Positions 1,043 through 21,254 of a DNA stretch of 64,000 nt are shown here, piece by piece. The notes under the pieces were generated by a model that had not been told where the DNA came from, made no database searches, and was given only the letters and a program-made list of their open reading frames with translations. This stretch comes from an uncultured Lachnospiraceae bacterium (GTDB lineage: Bacteria > Bacillota > Clostridia > Lachnospirales > Lachnospiraceae), in NCBI GenBank assembly GCA_902776305.1, contig CACYPS010000009.1, positions 1-64,000 of the forward strand, given 5' to 3'. The number at the start of each line of letters is the position of its first letter. The first letter of the stretch is position 1. A program made the translations under genes and the position numbers.

Positions 1043-1071
1043 TTGACACCCCATATGTTATCTGTTACAAT
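1043..1071 (+). promoter_or_regulatory. Strong sigma-A promoter of the T-box operon
   Basis: Perfect TTGACA (1043-1048), a 17-base spacer and TACAAT (1066-1071). Transcription would start near 1078, just before the T-box leader. Confidence 0.9.
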
Positions 1072-1094
1072 TCTTTTCAGCGTTAAAGTACGAA

Positions 1095-1375
1095 AACACA
1101 TACAAAGACTGTGACGAAGACGATCGGAAACACTCCGGAGTACAGAGAACCTGTCATAGCTGAGAGCAGGGTGAAGGAATTTCCAATGATTATCACTTCC
1201 GAGTCGGAGCGCTGAGCGGCACTTGCCGTTAGGTACTCCCGCGAAGGCTGCGTTAGTGCCCGGGACTTGATGGAGTCCGTTGAGAGGCGCCGCACGGCGC
1301 AATTTGAGTGGTACCGCGAGCATGTTTATTATGCCCGTCTCAAAGAATCCTTTGGGACGGGTTTTTATTTTTTAA
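1095..1375 (+). promoter_or_regulatory. T-box leader, isoleucine specifier (ATC)
   Basis: This is a tRNA-sensing leader that allows readthrough when the matching tRNA is uncharged. The T-box core GAGTGGTACCGCGA (1306-1319) is diagnostic. Upstream lie stem I elements, including GAGTACAGAGAA near 1139. The specifier region reads ATC-A-CTTCCGAG, which aligns with TGG-G-CTTCCGAG of the tryptophan T-box in this same window. That makes the specifier ATC (1192-1194), isoleucine; the preceding triplet ATT is also Ile. TTTGAG (1303-1308) can pair with CTCAAA (1339-1344) as the antiterminator, competing with the terminator at 1334-1361. Confidence 0.9.
1334..1368 (+). terminator. T-box-controlled intrinsic terminator
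   Basis: A 12-bp stem (1334-1345 with 1350-1361, one G-U pair) with loop AATC, followed by a T-rich tract. It is the off state of the isoleucine T-box. Confidence 0.9.
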
Positions 1376-1459
1376 TTATTCAGCACCCCATTCGCAGGCG
1401 CTTCGCGCCTCGCTCATGTTGAATAGTTATATATTTTCTAAAAATGAGGAGGTAGCAAA

Positions 1460-3781
1460 ATGCCTACAAACGCAGCACACCAGCGAGCAGCAAGCGACAT
1501 GGAAAAGGAAGTCGCCAGCCGTATCATGGCGCTTCGTGTCGACAGTGGTTACACACAGGAGCAAATGGCGGATATGACCGGTTTCTCCCTCACGGATTAC
1601 ATCGATTATGAGGGCGGAAGAGCTGATCTGCCGTTCTCGTTCATTCATAAATGCGCATCCGTATTCGACGTTGAAATCATGGAGCTTCTGGAAGGCCGTA
1701 CGCCCCTTCTGACGGGCTATACTCTGACACGCGCAGGCGGTGGACAGCTCACCTCGCAGGAGCCGGGTGTTCTGATCAAGAATATGGCCCCGCTCTTCAA
1801 GGACAGAATTGCAGACCCTTACTTCGTTGTCTACAACTATGATGAGGCACAGCAGCACGAGCCGATCGAGCAGGTCACACATCCCGGTCAGGAATTCGAC
1901 TATGTCCTTGAGGGATCCATGAAGATCAAGATCAAGGATAATGAGGAAATCCTCCATGCCGGCGACAGCATTTTCTATAACTCCTCCAATCCTCACGGCA
2001 TCATCGCAGTCGGTGGGCAGGATGTCCGCTTCCTGGCTATCGTCCTTCCCGAGGAAGGAGCCGAGGTGGAATGGGAAAAAGGCCGCCTGAGATCCAAGGT
2101 TCCGGCCGATGTGATCCAGAAGGAGGTCTCACCGTCCGCACTGAGCGCCCCGAACTTTGTCTCGAACTTTGTCTCGGTCAAAGAGCGCGAGGACGGCTAT
2201 CCGGAGAGCGTTACGTTCAAGAATACGGAGAAGTTCAACTTTGCATTTGACGTTGTAGATGCGATCGCCGAGAAGGAGCCGGATCGTCTCTGCATGATCC
2301 ATTTGGATAAGAACAAATTCGAGCGCCGATTCACATTCCTTGAAATGAAGAAAATGAGCGCGCGTGCTGCGAACTACTTTAAGGCACAGGGCATCAAGAA
2401 GGGTGACAGCGTAATGCTCCTCCTTCGCAGGAACTGGGAGTTCTGGCCGATCATCGTCGGCCTTCATAAACTGGGCGCCGTTGCAATCCCGGCAACGGAT
2501 CAGCTGAAGCAGAAGGATCTGGAATATCGTTTCCAGACCGCCAATGTCAAGGCAGTCTGCTGCAACGCGGAGACAGCTTGTATTGAAGAAGTCGAGAAGG
2601 CAATGGTCAACTGCCCGTCGGTCGAGCATCTCTTCACGACGGCGGGAAGACGTGAGGGCTGGCATTCATTTGACGATGAATACGAGATGTATTCCAGCCG
2701 CTACCGCCGCACAGGCGAGTCCATCAAGGGCAATGACAAGATGCTGATGCTGTTCTCGTCCGGAACTTCGGGATATCCGAAGGCGGTCGTTCACAGCTGC
2801 AAATACGCCCTCGGCCACTTTGTCACCGCCCGCTACTGGCAGTGTGTACATGCAGAAGGACTTCATCTGACAATCTCCGACACCGGCTGGGGCAAGGCTC
2901 TCTGGGGCAAGCTGTACGGACAGTGGATGAACGGCGGAGCAACATTTGTCTACGATTTCGACCGTTTCCACGCCGACGATATCCTGCCGCTGTTCGCGCA
3001 GTATAAGATCACGACATTCTGCGCACCGCCGACGATGTACCGCTTCTTTATTAAGGAAGATCTCAGCAAATACGATCTCTCCTCCATCCGCCACGCAAGC
3101 ATCGCGGGTGAGGCGATGAATCCGGAGGTCTTCACACGCTTCCGCGAGGCGACAGGCATCTCCATCATGGAAGGCTTCGGCCAGACAGAGACCACTCTTA
3201 CCGTCGGAAACTTTATCGGCATGACGCCTAAGCCGGGTTCGATGGGCAAGCCGAGCCCGATGTACAAGGTAGCGCTTCTGGACCCGGACGGCAAGGAAGT
3301 TAATGTCGGTGAATCCGGTGAGGTCTGTGTACGTTACGGTGGCGGCGAACCGTGCGGACTGTTCAAAGAGTACCTTAATAATCGTGAAGCGACCGACGCA
3401 TGCAAGCGTGACGGCTGGTATCACACCGGAGACCTTGCATGGAAGGATGAGGACGGTTACTTCTGGTATGTGGGACGTACGGATGACATCATCAAGTCCT
3501 CCGGATACCGCATCGGACCGTTCGAGATCGAGAGCGTTATCATGGAACTTCCGTATGTTCTGGAGTGCGGCGTATCTGCCGAGAAGGACGATATCCGCGG
3601 TCAGGTCGTCAAGGCAAGTATTGTCCTTGTGAAGGGTACGGAAGGAACCGAGGAACTCAAGAAAGAGATCCAGAATTATGTCAAGAAGCGCACCGCTCCT
3701 TACAAGTATCCGAGAATAGTTGTATTTAAGAGCGAGTTGCCGAAGACAATCAGTGGAAAAATCATTCGCAATCAGCTATAA
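1460..3781 (+). CDS. XRE-cupin-acyl-CoA synthetase (AMP-forming) fusion
   Basis: A 773-residue fusion. Residues about 15-75 are an XRE helix-turn-helix; about 115-190 a cupin (HPGQEFDYVLEGSM, SSNPHG); about 230 onward an AMP-forming acyl-CoA synthetase. The ligase has the A3 loop FSSGTSGYPKAVVHS, GFGQTETT, YHTGDLAW, GRTDDIIKSSGYR and the C-terminal catalytic lysine in PKTISGKI. Expected chemistry is acid + ATP + CoA to acyl-CoA; the family has medium- and short-chain acid members. GAGGAGG eight bases upstream supports the ATG. It sits first behind an isoleucine T-box and ahead of a VOR-type oxidoreductase, so 2-methylbutyrate or similar branched acids are inferred substrates. Whether the HTH binds DNA is unknown. 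Confidence 0.9.
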   Translation: MPTNAAHQRAASDMEKEVASRIMALRVDSGYTQEQMADMTGFSLTDYIDYEGGRADLPFSFIHKCASVFDVEIMELLEGRTPLLTGYTLTRAGGGQLTSQEPGVLIKNMAPLFKDRIADPYFVVYNYDEAQQHEPIEQVTHPGQEFDYVLEGSMKIKIKDNEEILHAGDSIFYNSSNPHGIIAVGGQDVRFLAIVLPEEGAEVEWEKGRLRSKVPADVIQKEVSPSALSAPNFVSNFVSVKEREDGYPESVTFKNTEKFNFAFDVVDAIAEKEPDRLCMIHLDKNKFERRFTFLEMKKMSARAANYFKAQGIKKGDSVMLLLRRNWEFWPIIVGLHKLGAVAIPATDQLKQKDLEYRFQTANVKAVCCNAETACIEEVEKAMVNCPSVEHLFTTAGRREGWHSFDDEYEMYSSRYRRTGESIKGNDKMLMLFSSGTSGYPKAVVHSCKYALGHFVTARYWQCVHAEGLHLTISDTGWGKALWGKLYGQWMNGGATFVYDFDRFHADDILPLFAQYKITTFCAPPTMYRFFIKEDLSKYDLSSIRHASIAGEAMNPEVFTRFREATGISIMEGFGQTETTLTVGNFIGMTPKPGSMGKPSPMYKVALLDPDGKEVNVGESGEVCVRYGGGEPCGLFKEYLNNREATDACKRDGWYHTGDLAWKDEDGYFWYVGRTDDIIKSSGYRIGPFEIESVIMELPYVLECGVSAEKDDIRGQVVKASIVLVKGTEGTEELKKEIQNYVKKRTAPYKYPRIVVFKSELPKTISGKIIRNQL

Positions 3782-3809
3782 TGTGTCGTTGGACGATGCG
3801 TAACGAACA

Positions 3810-3837
3810 CCCTGACATGCGAAATTGCATGTCAGGG
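3810..3837 (+). terminator. Intergenic hairpin between ligase and ferredoxin
   Basis: An 11-bp perfect stem (3810-3820 with 3827-3837), then only TTTCTG. The weak T-run suggests a partial terminator or an mRNA-processing or stability hairpin rather than a full stop, since the oxidoreductase genes follow without a visible new promoter. Confidence 0.5.
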
Positions 3838-3875
3838 TTTCTGCCGCGATGAATCAATAAAGGAGAGACATGAAA

Positions 3876-4106
3876 ATGAAGAAAAGATTCAAGGTTGTTT
3901 TCAACCGGGAAAAATGCAAGGGCTGCGAGCTCTGCATCAATTTCTGTCCAAAGAAAATTCTTGCTCTGGATCCGGAAGTGAACGCCAGGGGATATCATCC
4001 CGCAGGTATCACTGATCAGGAAAGCTGCATCGGCTGCGCAAGCTGCGCCACGATGTGTCCGGATTATTGCATCAGCATTTATCAGTTAGAGGAGGGTGAG
4101 TCATGA
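3876..4106 (+). CDS. 2-oxoacid oxidoreductase delta subunit, 2x[4Fe-4S] ferredoxin
   Basis: A small ferredoxin subunit of about 76 residues with two cluster motifs, CKGCELCINFCP and CIGCASCATMCP. It passes electrons between the thiamine-dependent catalytic subunits and free ferredoxin. Two ATGs are possible (3870, 3876). AGGAGA at 3861 is nine bases from the second and only about three from the first, so 3876 is chosen. Its stop overlaps the start of the alpha subunit (ATGA), indicating translational coupling. Confidence 0.9.
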   Translation: MKKRFKVVFNREKCKGCELCINFCPKKILALDPEVNARGYHPAGITDQESCIGCASCATMCPDYCISIYQLEEGES

Positions 4107-5182
4107 GCAGAGTCCTGATGAAAGGTAATGAGGCATTTGCGGAAGCGGCGATCCGCGCAGGCGTCAAATGTTATTTCGGCTACCCCATCACGCCGCAGAA
4201 TGAAATCCCCGAGTATATGAGTCACGAGCTCCCGAAGGCCGGCGGCGCTTTTATCCAGGCTGAGTCCGAGCTGGCTGCCATCAATATGGCGTTCGGAGCA
4301 TCGGCGAGCGGCGGAAGAGTTTTCATTTCCACAAGTTCACCGGGTCTCGCGCTGATGCAGGAAGGTATAGGCTTCATTGCATCCTGCGAAGTACCGCTCG
4401 TTATCTTAAATGTTTCCCGCGGCGGCCCCGGCGTCGGCGGTATCCAGCCGGGACAGGCAGATTATCTGCAGGTCACCCGCGGCGGTTATAACGGCGACGT
4501 GAAGGTGCCGGTATTTGCACCGTCCAGCATTCAGGAGTGCGCAAACCTCATTTACGAATGCTTCGACATCGCTGATGAGTACAGAAATCCGGTCGTCATC
4601 CTGGCAGACGGTATGCTGGGACAGATGATGGAGCCGGTCGAGCTGCCGGAAGCAAGAGGCATCACGCCGGTCGAGAAGATCAATGATGAAAGACCGTGGG
4701 CAATCACGGGTACAGATAATCATCCGGAGAGAAACGTTGTCTATTCACTGCGTCTTGATCCGCAGGTCCTTGAGAACCATTGCTTCGATATGTTCGAGAA
4801 GTATGCAAAGGCCGAGAAGGAACTCGTCCGTTGGACAGATCAGGGACTTGAGGATGCCGAGATCGTATTTGTCGCATTCGGAACCATGTCAAGACTCTGC
4901 GTCGAGGCTATCGAGCTTCTTGAGGAGCGCGGAATCAAGGCAGGTCTCATTCGCCCGATTTCGCTGTGGCCGTATCCGAACGCAGCATTTGACAAGATCG
5001 GAAAGAACTGCAAGGTCGTTATCTCCACGGAGCTCTCCATGGGACAGATGATCACGGACGTTAAGACGGCAGTTCAGGGCCGCTGGCCGGTAAGCCTCAT
5101 CAACCGTACAGGCGGTATGGTCCCGTCATCCATTGAGATTGCGGACCGCGCGGAAAAAGCATTAAAGGAGGCGACGAAATGA
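4103..5182 (+). CDS. vorB: 2-oxoacid:ferredoxin oxidoreductase alpha subunit, VorB type
   Basis: The alpha (pyrimidine-binding) subunit of a four-subunit 2-oxoacid:ferredoxin oxidoreductase; 359 residues, close to family length. Recognisable blocks are LMKGNEAFAEAAIRAG, FGYPITPQNEIPEY, the QAESELAAINMAFGA segment, SRGGPGVGGIQPGQADY and ADGMLGQMMEP, in the pattern of the branched-chain (VOR) group rather than pyruvate enzymes. The reaction is 2-oxoacid + CoA + oxidised ferredoxin to acyl-CoA + CO2 + reduced ferredoxin, reversible. It overlaps both neighbours by ATGA. Substrate class is inferred from family resemblance plus the Ile T-box; a general KOR activity cannot be excluded. Confidence 0.88.
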   Translation: MSRVLMKGNEAFAEAAIRAGVKCYFGYPITPQNEIPEYMSHELPKAGGAFIQAESELAAINMAFGASASGGRVFISTSSPGLALMQEGIGFIASCEVPLVILNVSRGGPGVGGIQPGQADYLQVTRGGYNGDVKVPVFAPSSIQECANLIYECFDIADEYRNPVVILADGMLGQMMEPVELPEARGITPVEKINDERPWAITGTDNHPERNVVYSLRLDPQVLENHCFDMFEKYAKAEKELVRWTDQGLEDAEIVFVAFGTMSRLCVEAIELLEERGIKAGLIRPISLWPYPNAAFDKIGKNCKVVISTELSMGQMITDVKTAVQGRWPVSLINRTGGMVPSSIEIADRAEKALKEATK

Positions 5183-5922
5183 AAACAGTATTTGAGCCAA
5201 CCAAGGGTATGATCCCTGTCGATACATCCTACTGTCCGGGCTGCGGACACGGTATCGCACATCGAATTATCATGGAGTGCCTCGAGGAGAGAGGATCTCT
5301 CGGCAATACGATCGGCGTCGTGCCGATCGGCTGCGCGATCAATGCGCATCATTTCATGAACGTCGATATGTGCGAGTCCACACACGGACGCGCTCCGGCG
5401 ATTGCTGCCGGCATCCGCCGCGTGCACCCGGATCAGGTCGTCTTTACATATCAGGGCGACGGTGACCTTGCCTCCATCGGTACCGCTGAGATCATTCATG
5501 CGGCACACCGTGGCGAGAAATTTACGACTTTCTTCATTAATAATGCAATTTACGGTATGACAGGCGGACAAATGGCACCGACGACTCTCATCGGTCAGAA
5601 GACCACAACATCCGTGAACGGCCGTACAGTAGAGCAGGCAGGTCTGCCGCTCCGTATGTGCGAGATTCTTTCCCAGATCGACTGCGCGGTATTTGTTGAG
5701 CGCGTCATGCTGAACAACCCGGCAAATGTCCGCAAAGCAAAGGCAGCGGTCAAGAAGGCTCTGGATATTCAGGATGCCCGCCTCGGATTTACATTTGTAG
5801 AATTCCTTTCTTCGTGTCCCACCAACTGGGGTCTCGCTCCGAAGGACGCTCTGAACTATGTGGGGCAGAACATGGCCGATTATTATCCGGTCAGAAATTT
5901 CAAGACACCGGAGGGATTTTAA
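5179..5922 (+). CDS. 2-oxoacid:ferredoxin oxidoreductase beta subunit (TPP-binding)
   Basis: The thiamine-pyrophosphate-binding beta subunit, 247 residues. It shows the N-terminal CPGCGHG cysteine motif and the TPP/Mg loop YQGDGDLASIG followed by NNAIYGMTGGQ. With the alpha subunit it forms the active site that cleaves or carboxylates 2-oxoacids. An AAGGAGG site inside the end of the alpha gene and the ATGA overlap fix the start. The gamma gene starts two bases after its stop codon. Confidence 0.92.
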   Translation: MKTVFEPTKGMIPVDTSYCPGCGHGIAHRIIMECLEERGSLGNTIGVVPIGCAINAHHFMNVDMCESTHGRAPAIAAGIRRVHPDQVVFTYQGDGDLASIGTAEIIHAAHRGEKFTTFFINNAIYGMTGGQMAPTTLIGQKTTTSVNGRTVEQAGLPLRMCEILSQIDCAVFVERVMLNNPANVRKAKAAVKKALDIQDARLGFTFVEFLSSCPTNWGLAPKDALNYVGQNMADYYPVRNFKTPEGF

Positions 5923-5923
5923 T

Positions 5924-6451
5924 ATGAAGAAAAAACTGTTTTTTGCCGGCGCAGGCGGACAGGGTGCCCTTGCAATCGGTCAGATGATCGCCAAAGCGGC
6001 AATGGAAGAAGGACTTGAAGTAACATGGCTGCCGTCTTACGGCCCGGAAATGCGCGGCGGCACAGCCAACTGCACCGTGGTCGTTTCCGATCGTGCGATC
6101 AGCTGCCCGCTGATCAACGAGGCAGATGTGCTCGTAGTTATGAATCTGCCGTCTCTGACAAAGTTCCAGTCGATGGTGGTTCCGGGAGGCAAGATCTTTA
6201 TCAACAGTTCTCTCGTTCCGGTGACCTCCGACCGCAAGGACTGCGATGTGTTCGAGATTCCGTGTAACGATATCGCTCATGATCTCGGCAACGAGAGAGC
6301 GTCCAACATCGTCATGCTGAGCGCGATCCTGAAGGAGACAGGAATCGTGAAAGAGGAGACAGTGCGCGAGCAGATCGAGAAGATGTTCTCAGGCCGCAAG
6401 GCTAAATTCCTTCCGGCGAATTTGGCAGCGTTGAAGACATATCTTGATTAA
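5924..6451 (+). CDS. 2-oxoacid:ferredoxin oxidoreductase gamma subunit
   Basis: The gamma (CoA-associated) subunit, 175 residues. It begins with a glycine-rich Rossmann-like loop, FAGAGGQGALAIGQ, followed by SYGPEMRGGTANC, both hallmarks of this subunit family. The longer frame from 5858 is rejected because GGAGGG sits nine bases before the ATG at 5924. It is the last gene before a strong terminator, completing a ligase-delta-alpha-beta-gamma operon. Confidence 0.92.
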   Translation: MKKKLFFAGAGGQGALAIGQMIAKAAMEEGLEVTWLPSYGPEMRGGTANCTVVVSDRAISCPLINEADVLVVMNLPSLTKFQSMVVPGGKIFINSSLVPVTSDRKDCDVFEIPCNDIAHDLGNERASNIVMLSAILKETGIVKEETVREQIEKMFSGRKAKFLPANLAALKTYLD

Positions 6452-6465
6452 ATAAGTATAAATAC

Positions 6466-6497
6466 AACCCCGGCCGGGAGGCCGGGGTTTCGCTTTT
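6466..6497 (+). terminator. Terminator of the VOR operon
   Basis: AACCCCGGCC (6466-6475) pairs with the matching arm (6481-6489) across GGGAG and is followed by TTCGCTTTTTT. A strong GC stem. Confidence 0.88.
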
Positions 6498-6542
6498 TTG
6501 CACAAAAATGCTTTAGATATATGATTATTTCTCGTTTTGTTG

Positions 6543-6548
6543 TATAAT
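6543..6548 (+). promoter_or_regulatory. Candidate -10 box for the glycosidase gene
   Basis: TATAAT at 6543-6548 has no convincing -35 at 16-18 bases, so an activator may be needed. The remaining leader (6549-6703) has no recognisable antiterminator or riboswitch. Confidence 0.4.
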
Positions 6549-6676
6549 GAATATGTTTATGCGATAGTGAAAGCCTGTGCATATTTAACAAAATTCAACA
6601 GAGTTTTCGAAGCATGAGAGCACGTGACAACAGGCATTAGGCAGATTTAGGCAGGAGAATTTGCCATTTTCATTGA

Positions 6677-8128
<1,452 letters not shown>

Positions 8129-17390: not shown

Positions 17391-18785
17391 TTATTCGATA
17401 AAGCTTCCGTCAGCTTTCTTCGGAATGCTTGCGAATCCGCGGGCAAGATCCTCATCGGTAGGAATGTAGTCATTCATTGTGCCGTTGTTGAACTGCTCGT
17501 AAGCTACCATATCGAAGTAGCCGGTGCCGGTGAGACCGAAGATGATCGTCTTCTCCTCGCCGGTCTCTTTGCATCTGAGAGCCTCGTCGATCGCAGCGCG
17601 AATCGCATGGCTGGATTCCGGTGCCGGAAGGATACCCTCGGTGCGTGCGAACATCTCTGCTGCCTTGAACACTTCCGTCTGCTCTACGGAGACCGCTCTC
17701 ATGTAGCCGTCGTGATACAGCTGGGAGAGGACCGGACTCATGCCGTGGAAACGAAGACCGCCGGCGTGATTTGCCGAAGGAATGAAATCGTGGCCGAGCG
17801 TGTACATCTTGGCGAGCGGTGTGACCATACCGGTGTCGCAGAAGTCATAGACATATTTTCCGCGTGTGAAGCTCGGGCAGGATGCCGGCTCGACTGCCAT
17901 GATGTCGTAGTCTGCTTCTCCGCGGAGCTTCTCGCCCATGAACGGGGCAATCAGACCGCCGAGGTTGGATCCGCCGCCGGCGCATCCGATGATCATATCC
18001 GGCTTAATACCGTATTTATCGCAGGCGAGTTTTGTCTCGAGTCCGATTACGGACTGGTGCAGGAGCACCTGGTTGAGAACACTGCCGAGAACATAGCGGT
18101 AACCTTCATTTGTAACGGCAACTTCAACCGCCTCGGAGATTGCGCAGCCGAGGGAACCTGTCGTTCCCGGGTGTGCTTTAAGAATCTCGCGGCCGATTTT
18201 GGTCGTATCGGACGGAGACGGGGTTACGTCTGCGCCGTATGTGCGCATTACTTCGCGGCGGAACGGCTTCTGCTCGTAGGAAACCTTGACCATGTAGACT
18301 TTGCAGTCGAGATCAAAGAAGGAGCAGGCCATGGAGAGGGCAGTGCCCCACTGGCCGGCACCGGTCTCGGTTGTGACGCCTTTGAGTCCTTGTTTCTTGG
18401 CGTAGTAGGCTTGGGCGAGTGCGGAGTTCAGCTTGTGGCTGCCGGATGTATTGTTTCCTTCGAACTTATAGAAGATGTGAGCCGGAGTTCCCAGCGCTTT
18501 CTCAAGATATTCCGCGTGCATGAGCGGCGACGGGCGATAGATCTTGTAGAAATCATGGATTTCCTTCGGGATGTCGTAGTACGGGGTATTGTCGTCGAGT
18601 TCCTGAGCCACGAGTTCTTCGCAGAAGACCGGAGCAAGGTCCGCTGCGCCCATCGGCTCGAGGGTTCCGGGGTTCAGGAGCGGAGCCTGCTTGGTCTTCA
18701 TGTCCGCTCTTACGTTATACCATTTCTTCGGGATCTCGTTCTCTTCCAGATACATCTTGTAAGGTACATCATACTTCTTGCTCAT
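17391..18785 (-). CDS. trpB: Tryptophan synthase beta chain-like protein, TrpB2 type
   Basis: A PLP enzyme of 464 residues that joins indole and serine to tryptophan. Length and the N-terminal YNVRADMKTKQAP block fit the longer TrpB2 branch. The PLP lysine lies in NTSGSHKLNSA, followed by ETGAGQWGTALS and the phosphate-binding GCAGGGSNLGG. It is preceded by a tryptophan T-box and stands alone without trpA, so it probably salvages indole rather than working in an alpha-beta complex. AGGAGA precedes the ATG. Confidence 0.92.
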   Translation of the reverse strand: MSKKYDVPYKMYLEENEIPKKWYNVRADMKTKQAPLLNPGTLEPMGAADLAPVFCEELVAQELDDNTPYYDIPKEIHDFYKIYRPSPLMHAEYLEKALGTPAHIFYKFEGNNTSGSHKLNSALAQAYYAKKQGLKGVTTETGAGQWGTALSMACSFFDLDCKVYMVKVSYEQKPFRREVMRTYGADVTPSPSDTTKIGREILKAHPGTTGSLGCAISEAVEVAVTNEGYRYVLGSVLNQVLLHQSVIGLETKLACDKYGIKPDMIIGCAGGGSNLGGLIAPFMGEKLRGEADYDIMAVEPASCPSFTRGKYVYDFCDTGMVTPLAKMYTLGHDFIPSANHAGGLRFHGMSPVLSQLYHDGYMRAVSVEQTEVFKAAEMFARTEGILPAPESSHAIRAAIDEALRCKETGEEKTIIFGLTGTGYFDMVAYEQFNNGTMNDYIPTDEDLARGFASIPKKADGSFIE

Positions 18786-18942: not shown

Positions 18943-19240
18943 GCAAAAAGAAAACGCCCTTGTCCCCATCAGAACTGAAGGGACAAGAGCGATAATAAAC
19001 TCCTGCGGTGCCACCCAACTTGACGCTTGTTGCGTCCTCTCATGCATACCATCATATGCCGGATTTTGATCACGGAGATCCTGCTCCGTCTCGCCTACTG
19101 CCCGTCCGGGGTTCGGTTCGCCCTCGGAAGCCCATTCGCACGGCATTTCTCTCCGCATTTCCACTGTCTGCGGCTCACTGGTCAGAAAGAGGTTCGTGTT
19201 ACTATTTCTTCCTCATTGGTTTGTAGCTGTATTAAGTTGT
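18943..19240 (-). promoter_or_regulatory. T-box leader, tryptophan specifier (TGG)
   Basis: On the minus strand: the specifier loop GAA-TGG-G-CTTCCGAG (TGG at 19132-19134), the T-box core GGGTGGCACCGCAGG (about 19002-19017), and a terminator whose arms (about 18953-18991) are followed by TTTTCTTTTT. It raises trpB expression when tRNA-Trp is uncharged. Confidence 0.93.
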
Positions 19241-19344: not shown

Positions 19345-21102
19345 TTATTCAAAATCCAGATAAGCACCCTTCATCGGCGACGCAGCATGCTCCGCGAACA
19401 GCCTCAGCGCGCCCCTCTTATACTTCATCGGCTTCGGCTGCCAGTTCTTCTTACGCTCGGCAAGGATCTCGTCCATCTCTTCCGGAGTCTTTCTCTCGCC
19501 CTTTACGCCGACGATCTCAAGAACTCTTTCCATGACGTCCAGATGGATGAGGTCGCCTTCCTCGACCAGGGCGATCGGTCCGCCGCTCTGAGCTTCCGGA
19601 CTGCAGTGTCCGATGACAGGTCCTGTGGATGCGCCGGAGAATCTGCCGTCTGTGATCAGCGCAATCGTTCTTCCGAGCTCCTTGTCAGAGGAGATAGCCT
19701 CCGATGTGTAGAACATTTCAGGCATACCGGATGCCTTGGGGCCCTCGTATCTGATGAAAACGGCATCCCCGGGATTTACTCTGTGATGAAGGACCGCGTC
19801 AATGCATTCCTCCTCGCTATCGAACGGTCTCGCGTTCAGAACAGCGCTGAACATCTCTTTCGGGCAGGCGGTGTGCTTGATGACCGCGCCTTCCGGTGCC
19901 AGATTTCCTTTGAGGATCGCGATGGATCCGTCTGTTCCGATTGCTTTGTCGAACGGTCTGATGATATCTTCCTTCGTGATATGACTTCCGTATCTCTCGT
20001 TGGCCTTGTCCAGCCAGCCCTGGCATCTCTCGTAGAAGCCGTTCTGTTTCAGCTCTTCCAGGTTCTCGCCGAGCGTCTTGCCTGTCACGGTCATGACGTC
20101 CAGATGAAGAACGCTCTTGATTTCCTCCATGATTGCGGGTACGCCGCCTGCATAGTAGAAGAACTCTGCCGGCCATCTGCCTGCCGGACGGACATCCAGC
20201 AGATAGTGTGCGCCTCTGTGGAGTTTGTCAAATGTCTCCCCTGTTATCTCGATTCCGTATTCATGGGCGATTGCCGGGATGTGCATCAGTGCATTTGTGG
20301 AACCGGAGATAGCGGCGTGGACCATGATGGCATTTTCAAAACTGTCCATGGTTACGATATCTGACGGTTTTAAGCCGATTTTGGCAAGCTTTACGGCCTG
20401 TTTTCCGGCATTCTTTGCGTACTGGATAAGATCCGGACTGGTCGCCGGCAGAAGTGCGCTGCCCGGCAGTGCAAGTCCGAGGGCTTCCGCCATGATCTGC
20501 ATGGTGGACGCGGTTCCGATGAATGAGCAGGCGCCGCAGCTCGGACATGCGTTGTGCTTAGCCCATGTCAGCTTTGCCTCATCGATCTCACCGCGCTCAT
20601 ACTGAGCGGAGTACATACCCAGCTGTTCGAGTGTGAGCATGTCCGGGCCTGCTGCCATTGTTCCGCCGGTCACGACGACGGACGGAATATCAACGCGGGC
20701 AAGTCCGATCAGATTGCCGGGCATTCCCTTGTCGCAGCTCGCAATGTAGACGCCTGCGTCGAACGGCGTGGCATTGGCCTGAATCTCAATCATATTGGCG
20801 ATCATCTCGCGGCTGCAGAGCGAGTAATTGATGCCGTCGTTTCCCTGGCTCTCGCCGTCGCACATATCGGTCGTAAAATAGCGGGCACCGTATCCTCCCT
20901 CCTCGCGGACGCCTTCGCGGGCAGCCTCCACGAGTTTGTTCAGGTGTCCTGAGCCCGGGTGACTGTCACCGAATGTACTCTCAATAAATACCTGGATCTT
21001 TCCGAGATCTTCCGGTTTCCAGCCGGTACCGATGCGGAGCGGGTCGAGTTCAGGTGCATTTGCGCGGAATACCTGGCTTGGCATTTCCTTAATATTCTTC
21101 AT
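19345..21102 (-). CDS. IlvD/Edd-family dehydratase, probable sugar-acid dehydratase
   Basis: About 585 residues. Iron-sulfur ligands appear as DMCDGESQG, ASCDKGMPGNL and PSCGACSFIGTA, the pattern of the IlvD/Edd family, which dehydrates dihydroxyacids to 2-keto(-3-deoxy) acids. The true IlvD substrate is dihydroxyisovalerate, but this gene lies with a LarA-family enzyme, a polyol-type dehydrogenase, a GntP permease and a DapA-family aldolase, so an aldonate is the better guess. Of two Mets, the one at 21102 is chosen because GGAGG lies five bases upstream. It is the last gene of a three-gene minus operon. Confidence 0.88.
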   Translation of the reverse strand: MKNIKEMPSQVFRANAPELDPLRIGTGWKPEDLGKIQVFIESTFGDSHPGSGHLNKLVEAAREGVREEGGYGARYFTTDMCDGESQGNDGINYSLCSREMIANMIEIQANATPFDAGVYIASCDKGMPGNLIGLARVDIPSVVVTGGTMAAGPDMLTLEQLGMYSAQYERGEIDEAKLTWAKHNACPSCGACSFIGTASTMQIMAEALGLALPGSALLPATSPDLIQYAKNAGKQAVKLAKIGLKPSDIVTMDSFENAIMVHAAISGSTNALMHIPAIAHEYGIEITGETFDKLHRGAHYLLDVRPAGRWPAEFFYYAGGVPAIMEEIKSVLHLDVMTVTGKTLGENLEELKQNGFYERCQGWLDKANERYGSHITKEDIIRPFDKAIGTDGSIAILKGNLAPEGAVIKHTACPKEMFSAVLNARPFDSEEECIDAVLHHRVNPGDAVFIRYEGPKASGMPEMFYTSEAISSDKELGRTIALITDGRFSGASTGPVIGHCSPEAQSGGPIALVEEGDLIHLDVMERVLEIVGVKGERKTPEEMDEILAERKKNWQPKPMKYKRGALRLFAEHAASPMKGAYLDFE

Positions 21103-21254
21103 GGCATCCTCCATATAAATTCAGATTGGCATTGCGCCATCGATCTGCTGACAGGTTTGAGCGCAGCAGCAATGGCAGTCTCTGCCCTTATTTAACAGAT
21201 TCAAATTCTTTTATATACTTGCAGCTTTGTAAGCGCGTCATCTCGAAGCGGAAG

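Follow-up and report, generated by a model that had tools for sequence, protein, structure and literature searches.

Why should a T-box riboswitch with an isoleucine specifier stand in front of an acyl-CoA synthetase and a 2-oxoisovalerate:ferredoxin oxidoreductase (VOR)? T-boxes switch genes on when an amino acid is scarce, and isoleucine T-boxes (Rfam family RF00230) are known ahead of ileS and ilv operons. The leader considered here lies in a 64,000-nucleotide stretch from an uncultured Lachnospiraceae bacterium (the window; positions 1 to 64,000 of contig CACYPS010000009.1, assembly GCA_902776305.1). It shares with the known isoleucine T-boxes a full-length model match, an ATC specifier, a TGGNACC bulge, and a terminator but, unlike them, precedes an acyl-CoA synthetase and a VOR. 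On comparative evidence, drawn mostly from metagenome-assembled genomes, it is very probable that this operon is a tRNA-Ile-gated salvage of 2-methylbutyrate for isoleucine and one case of a series of T-boxed ligases, each serving its own amino acid. The leader region is made up as follows.

1043..1071 (+): promoter-like site that agrees with the consensus at 11 of 12 positions, TTGACA-17-TACAAT with a TG ahead of the second hexamer (a match to the consensus only)
1102..1345 (+): T-box leader, Stem I to antiterminator (RF00230 model positions 1-219 of 219, 72.6 bits, E 9.3e-16)
1192..1194 (+): specifier codon ATC (Ile), followed by A (covariance-model alignment and specifier-loop geometry)
1307..1318 (+): antiterminator core AGTGGTACCGCG with a TGGTACC bulge at 1309-1315 (covariance model)
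1333..1362 (+): leader terminator, a 13-pair stem then a T-run, overlapping the 3' part of the antiterminator (terminator scan)

The segment 1102-1345 is confirmed as a full-length T-box with an isoleucine specifier, from which tRNA-dependent antitermination is predicted. A default Rfam scan at the gathering score of 93 bits gave no T-box match in the window, and cmscan was therefore run at a lowered threshold, where the match spans all 219 of the 219 model columns. We do not take the gathering score as defining, because two other T-boxes of the same genome, ahead of genes identified by eye as thrS (63.3 bits) and trpB-like (66.9 bits), also score below it. An original prediction made from the letters of this locus had named ATC as the specifier, and this codon is read both by the covariance model and by a geometric rule (the codon, a single base, four bases that pair with the 5' strand of the K-turn region, and GAG); neither places another codon there. 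The remaining hallmarks, the TGGNACC bulge and the terminator-like site at 1333-1362, are present as well, and the variable base of the bulge, T, presumably fits an A discriminator in the tRNA. At four other T-boxes of the genome the specifier also fits the gene that follows: ACC with thrS, TGG with a trp operon, CTC with a leuA-like gene, and TGG with the trpB-like gene. All of these genes but the leuA-like one were identified by eye; ACC and the first TGG were read by the geometric rule and CTC by a relaxed form of it. The last of the four lies in the window itself, at 18976-19225 (−), with its TGG read by eye and the trpB-like gene at 17391-18785 (−). The promoter scan found nine such sites against 5.0 expected. 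An inverted-repeat-like stretch was seen by eye at 1380-1432, between the leader terminator and the ligase start, and the distance from T-box core to ligase differs among close relatives.

Between the T-box and an operon-end terminator stand five plus-strand genes.

1460..3781 (+): fused HTH (helix-turn-helix, XRE-like)-cupin-acyl-CoA synthetase (AMP-forming), 773 amino acids (PF00501, PF13193, and PF07883 over cut-off)
3809..3838 (+): stable hairpin between the ligase and ferredoxin genes, followed by TTTCTG (the fold of 3782-3869 has z −4.5, with 0 of 200 shuffles folding as well)
3870..4106 (+): VOR delta subunit, 2x[4Fe-4S] ferredoxin (Fer4 domains; best NCBIfam model OorD, below cut-off)
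4103..5182 (+): VOR alpha subunit, VorB (NF005507, 474 bits against a cut-off of 399; POR_N and PFOR_II, PF01855 and PF17147)
5179..5922 (+): VOR beta subunit, thiamine pyrophosphate-binding (PF02775; NCBIfam beta-subunit models below cut-off)
5924..6451 (+): VOR gamma subunit (PF01558; PorC_KorC, 79.7 bits against a cut-off of 81.1)
6466..6489 (+): operon-end terminator, a 10-pair stem and T-run (terminator scan)

Domain and NCBIfam matches thus bear out the order originally proposed, a T-box followed by an AMP-forming ligase and four VOR subunits; the HTH and cupin domains of the ligase had gone unmentioned. These occupy window positions 1460-2150, and the HTH_19 match (E 2.5e-6) lies slightly below the Pfam cut-off. 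The alpha, beta, gamma, and delta subunits of a four-subunit VOR-type enzyme are all there, VorB over its subfamily cut-off and the other three below the NCBIfam cut-offs. The enzyme's branched-chain substrate is predicted from the model name, and we predict that it acts as a carboxylase. The hairpin at 3809-3838 could possibly be a partial attenuator or an RNA-processing site; it was rejected as a terminator, having just three T after the stem and no place in the output of the terminator scan.

The enzymes leave the direction of the pathway unfixed on their own, and VOR enzymes are generally known to work oxidatively in amino-acid fermenters too. The operon might then be degradative, with VOR oxidising isoleucine-derived 3-methyl-2-oxovalerate and the ligase handling the acyl-CoA for energy. 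We regard this as highly improbable. T-boxes activate genes under shortage of the amino acid, an AMP-forming synthetase consumes ATP rather than making it, and within the family the fused ligase occurs in genomes without ilvC.

In the window genome (97% complete), ilvA, ilvC, and ilvD all failed to reach cut-off; the ilvC search gave a single 23.8-bit match against a cut-off of 226, and homologues of ilvA and ilvD lie below cut-off. Among 18 family genomes, ilvC is over cut-off in 13 and is missing in exactly the five that have the fused ligase, the window genome and four others. The 13 comparison genomes all have ilvD over cut-off, compared with 0 of the 5, and 11 of them have ilvA over cut-off, the other two in split pieces, with weak homologues in the five fused-ligase genomes. 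No citramalate synthase over cut-off was found in any of the 18. An IlvD/Edd-family dehydratase at window positions 19345-21114 (−) scores 523 bits against a dihydroxy-acid dehydratase cut-off of 644, in a genome where no ilvC was found. When 120 family genomes are considered, ilvC is missing in 5/5 with the fused ligase versus 3/115 without it (Fisher p 2.9e-7, uncorrected for phylogeny); of the three exceptions, two are genomes of 60% and 84% completeness. An aminotransferase of the ilvE type is present in the window genome as its one Aminotran_4 protein. These findings, together with the substrate preference of the nearest solved structure (2-methylbutyrate; see below), support the reductive isoleucine route put forward in the original prediction; enzyme activity, flux direction, and co-transcription of the VOR genes are predicted.

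The same gene losses bear on a different use of the operon, in which the ligase would activate propionate and VOR would yield 2-oxobutyrate to feed the usual ilvBCD route. 2-Oxobutyrate synthase routes are known in anaerobes, and the NCBIfam matches of the ligase include short-chain synthetases. Because no ilvC was found in the window genome or its four fused-ligase relatives, 2-oxobutyrate would be a dead end, barring a non-homologous isomeroreductase; this proposal also predicts no valine or leucine specifiers on paralogues. We consider it extremely improbable.

A wider survey qualifies how ligase and ilvC are related. Among 393 genomes of the class (completeness filter 90, two candidates scored per genome), the matches listed include a full-length ligase in 68 genomes, 48 without and 20 with ilvC, and other ligase matches in 113 genomes, 20 of them without ilvC; 212 genomes have no match, 100 of them without ilvC. 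Absence of ilvC is thus common without the ligase too, and strict mutual exclusion of fused ligase and ilvC was rejected as too strong, since 20 of the 68 keep the gene. Adding four more family genomes gives 72 with a full-length match, and the loci of 71 were used (all but G496). After correction by cmscan, genomes with a T-boxed ligase divide into 49 without and 9 with ilvC and those without a T-boxed one into 3 and 10, a contrast to which one genus of the family coded f17, lacking the T-box, contributes much. Counted by genus, of 33 with T-boxed ligases called by motif, 28 are uniformly without ilvC, 2 keep it, and 3 are mixed.

If isoleucine salvage is the purpose of the operon, related ligases should be informative about which amino acid each one answers to. 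In a scan of named genomes, mostly metagenome-assembled Bacillota and many titled by ruminant gut site, the best 80 loci were kept, and 79 of them have a relaxed T-box core in the 1.5 kb upstream of their best ligase match. With further genomes, 213 ligase matches were examined, of which 186 include the N-terminal part, as judged from a single tblastn match (in L110 and L111 the parts are separated by stops); the two collections overlap (L042 and L163, for example, are one locus), so the counts contain duplicates. By motif and geometry, the 186 gave ATC 127 times, GTA 30, GTC 4, GTG 2, and CTG 2, with no T-box in 19 and 2 unresolved. The motif search overlooks divergent cores: cmscan recovered T-boxes with ATC in L181 and L208, first called as having none, and in L020, first unresolved. 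Specifiers are thus readable in 168 of the 186 (165 by geometry and 3 by covariance model), and they name isoleucine 130 times, valine 36, leucine 2, and no other amino acid. T-box-controlled ligases recur across many clostridial families, with valine and leucine versions; those called by motif cover 33 genera and 20 family codes. At 16 loci, of which L042 and L163 are the same place, two T-boxed ligases occur together, 14 of them isoleucine with valine and 2 isoleucine with leucine.

No T-box was found for 17 of the 186, and one more (L063) is truncated by a contig end. The loci L158, L182, L196, and L032 and the f17 loci L173, L180, L184, and L193 were negative by cmscan as well; the remaining motif-negative loci with an N-terminal part were judged by motif alone, except L110, also negative by cmscan. 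In a comparison of two sets chosen after the motif search, cmscan found a T-box in all 12 motif-positive loci and in none of the 13 motif-negative ones, the latter being 12 without the N-terminal part and L110. Ten f17 genomes (L170, L172, L173, L176, L179, L180, L184, L185, L187, and L193), nine in one genus and one in another, have a fused ligase, keep ilvC, and yielded no T-box (4 of the 10 searched by cmscan). The 27 matches without an N-terminal part have no T-box core within 900 bases in 24 cases. In two others an ATC T-box stands some 700 bases upstream, a gap that leaves room for a separate HTH-cupin gene, and the gap in L218 does show an N-terminal-part match. One CGT call in a match of this kind scored low and was distrusted. 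Near an isoleucine-type ligase, L089 has two tandem Clostridiales-1 RNA matches at 1182-1499 (−). In the window genome a second ligase has a separate HTH-cupin-like gene (identified by eye) directly upstream and no T-box that we found, for which reason the fused ligase looks like a merged gene pair; several full-length-sized matches of the class search contain internal stops, as an adjacent pair would.

The specifier follows the ligase itself. On a tree of 198 different ligases labelled Ile, Val, Leu, none, or no HTH (L020, L181, and L208 still carrying the label none), specifier class requires 20 label changes compared with a shuffled mean of 76, and 0 of 200 shuffles are as low. Such a link could also reflect mere shared descent, a few old paralogue groups differing everywhere, and many columns do separate the classes, several of them in the N-terminal domain. 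We think this unlikely. Valine-type ligases form three clades, and the well-supported branches of the tree require at least three changes; within the ligase domain the best-separating columns are 478 and 481, which align with Val310 of E. coli Acs and a site three residues further on. Window position 478 is Gly in 115 of 116 isoleucine-type ligases and Ala in all valine-type (35/35) and leucine-type (2/2) ones. L020, L181, and L208 had been seen to have Gly at 478 before their specifiers were read, and proved to have ATC, as the rule requires. We take Val310, Thr311, Val386, and Trp414 to line the acetate pocket of Acs, and positions 478, 481, 580, and 581 to correspond to nonribosomal peptide synthetase code positions 236, 239, 330, and 331; a literature search on the Acs pocket residues found nothing relevant. 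The window ligase has Trp460, Gly478, Leu481, Leu580, and Thr581 at the sites compared. Position 581 is mostly Ser or Thr in isoleucine-type enzymes (91/116) and mostly Ile or Val in valine-type ones; the replacements at 478 and 581 mostly make the side chain larger, which is what a smaller acid would be predicted to require. Columns 77 and 101, in the HTH-cupin part, also differ between isoleucine-type and valine-type proteins, and the regulator part may therefore be class-specific too.

What acid the window ligase would use is suggested by its relatives. Its best PDB match is 3etc (E 6e-186, covering residues 233-771), the 2-methylbutyryl-CoA synthetase MacsMa of Methanosarcina acetivorans, for which PMC10455477 describes a preference for 2-methylbutyrate. 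The window ligase shares with MacsMa, its closest solved relative, the Trp at the MacsMa Trp259 site (Trp460) and a Gly at the Acs Trp414 site (Gly574), as in MacsMa-type enzymes, but differs in having the added HTH-cupin part and the T-box. Trp460 is kept in all of the isoleucine-type (116/116) and valine-type (35/35) ligases. The best NCBIfam model is MbcS (NF047394), and the passages on MbcS in PMC10026030 have the S. aureus enzyme activating 2-methylbutyrate and isobutyrate and supplying primers for lipid synthesis. By analogy, the branched acyl-CoA made here might mainly prime branched-chain fatty acids of the membrane. The score of 436.4 bits is, however, about half of the model's cut-off of 850, and lipid priming leaves the Ile, Val, and Leu T-boxes, the VOR, and the clustered ilvE unexplained. 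The ligase is best described as MbcS-like in its expected substrate rather than as a member of MbcS, and lipid priming as its principal role is very unlikely; a secondary lipid role may exist.

Some gene neighbourhoods hold several of these elements. In L162 an Ile T-box ligase is followed by a Val T-box ligase, VOR, ilvE, a Leu T-box, and a leuA-like gene, in that order, and in L197 T-box units for Val, Leu, and Ile share a stretch of about 10 kb. An ilvE-type aminotransferase gene lies on the same strand within 4.5 kb of 8 of 17 VOR gamma genes, counting those with at least 1.2 kb downstream or with ilvE nearby. A CTC T-box precedes leuA-like genes in 14 of 18 cases. One such locus, L222 (contig C11 of G000, 3461-7691, −), has a Leu (CTC) T-box, a leuA-like gene (303 bits against a cut-off of 532), and then an 832-amino-acid protein whose residues 281-824 match AMP-ligases. 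No LeuC-sized aconitase-family protein was found in the five fused-ligase family genomes, the window genome included, and the L222 locus may be a non-classical leucine unit.

Several observations weigh against tRNA-Ile-gated salvage, or narrow it. Of the best 80 named loci, many of them on short contigs, 23 have VOR genes near the ligase, and a motif check of 27 vorB genes found no T-box core in the 1.3 kb upstream of any of them. In the window, the stable hairpin separates the ligase from the VOR genes, and the leader folded as a lone sequence weakly beats its shuffles (z −1.94, 8 of 200 folding as well). We found no valine-type T-boxed ligase in the window genome. The 17 ligases with an N-terminal part and no detected T-box include 9 from one genus. 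Because ilvC is retained in 9 of the 58 genomes sampled that have a T-boxed fused ligase, the T-boxed ligase is not always a replacement for the ilv pathway, and ilvC is present in 10 of the 13 genomes having solely ligases without a T-box. Not every replacement of Leu at 481 (by Met, Cys, or Ala) shrinks the pocket, and by balanced accuracy over all 773 columns, position 101 of the N-terminal part ranks first, ahead of 478 (second) and 481 (fourth).

The chemistry itself and the T-box RNA class are already known. Rumen anaerobes carboxylate branched volatile fatty acids, converting 2-methylbutyrate to isoleucine, isobutyrate to valine, and isovalerate to leucine, according to work cited in PMC7356843 and, for the isoleucine route, as inferred in the Methanobrevibacter ruminantium genome paper (PMC2812497). 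The chemistry predicted for the window operon is the same, but the carboxylation passages of these two papers mention no T-box control, whereas the Clostridia considered here are predicted to gate the route by T-box. The words "ferredoxin" and "CoA" are absent from the main text of a T-box survey (PMC2494555) and of a paper on RNA-controlled regulons (PMC3766115), as is "T-box" from the main text of the MbcS paper (PMC10026030). T-boxed acyl-CoA synthetases with a specifier matched to the paralogue were found in none of the literature matches listed, in a search that most subscription papers, other T-box surveys among them, lay beyond; it does not follow that the wiring is unpublished.

We propose the following sequence of events. 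Uncharged tRNA-Ile would pair with the ATC specifier and the TGGTACC bulge, stabilising the antiterminator and allowing read-through into the ligase and VOR genes upon isoleucine starvation. The ligase would turn 2-methylbutyrate, released from isoleucine by other microbes, into 2-methylbutyryl-CoA, which VOR, with reduced ferredoxin and CO2, would carboxylate to 3-methyl-2-oxovalerate. The last step, to isoleucine, would fall to an IlvE-type aminotransferase whose gene lies elsewhere in the genome, and the operon would in this way replace the absent ilvA/ilvC pathway. More generally, each branched-chain acyl-CoA synthetase would stand under the T-box of its own amino acid: isoleucine for 2-methylbutyrate, valine for isobutyrate, and leucine for isovalerate.

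We also lean, with less assurance, toward a broader reading, in which many gut and rumen Clostridia would have dropped the ilv pathway in favour of one T-boxed synthetase per amino acid with a shared ferredoxin-driven carboxylase and IlvE. Codon and pocket residue (Gly for the C5 acid, Ala for the C4 acid) would have changed together at least three times, so that the leader RNA would predict enzyme specificity, and through the HTH-cupin part the same pathway would exert a second control, at the level of protein. Branched volatile fatty acids are fed to ruminants since some rumen bacteria depend on them, and the genes and control behind this dependence have so far been poorly marked. With a T-box-ligase signature, the branched acid that a given uncultured clostridium uses could be read from its sequence, and substrates could be suggested for a large group of acyl-CoA synthetases; the signature would also offer a natural case of a regulatory codon and an enzyme pocket evolving together.

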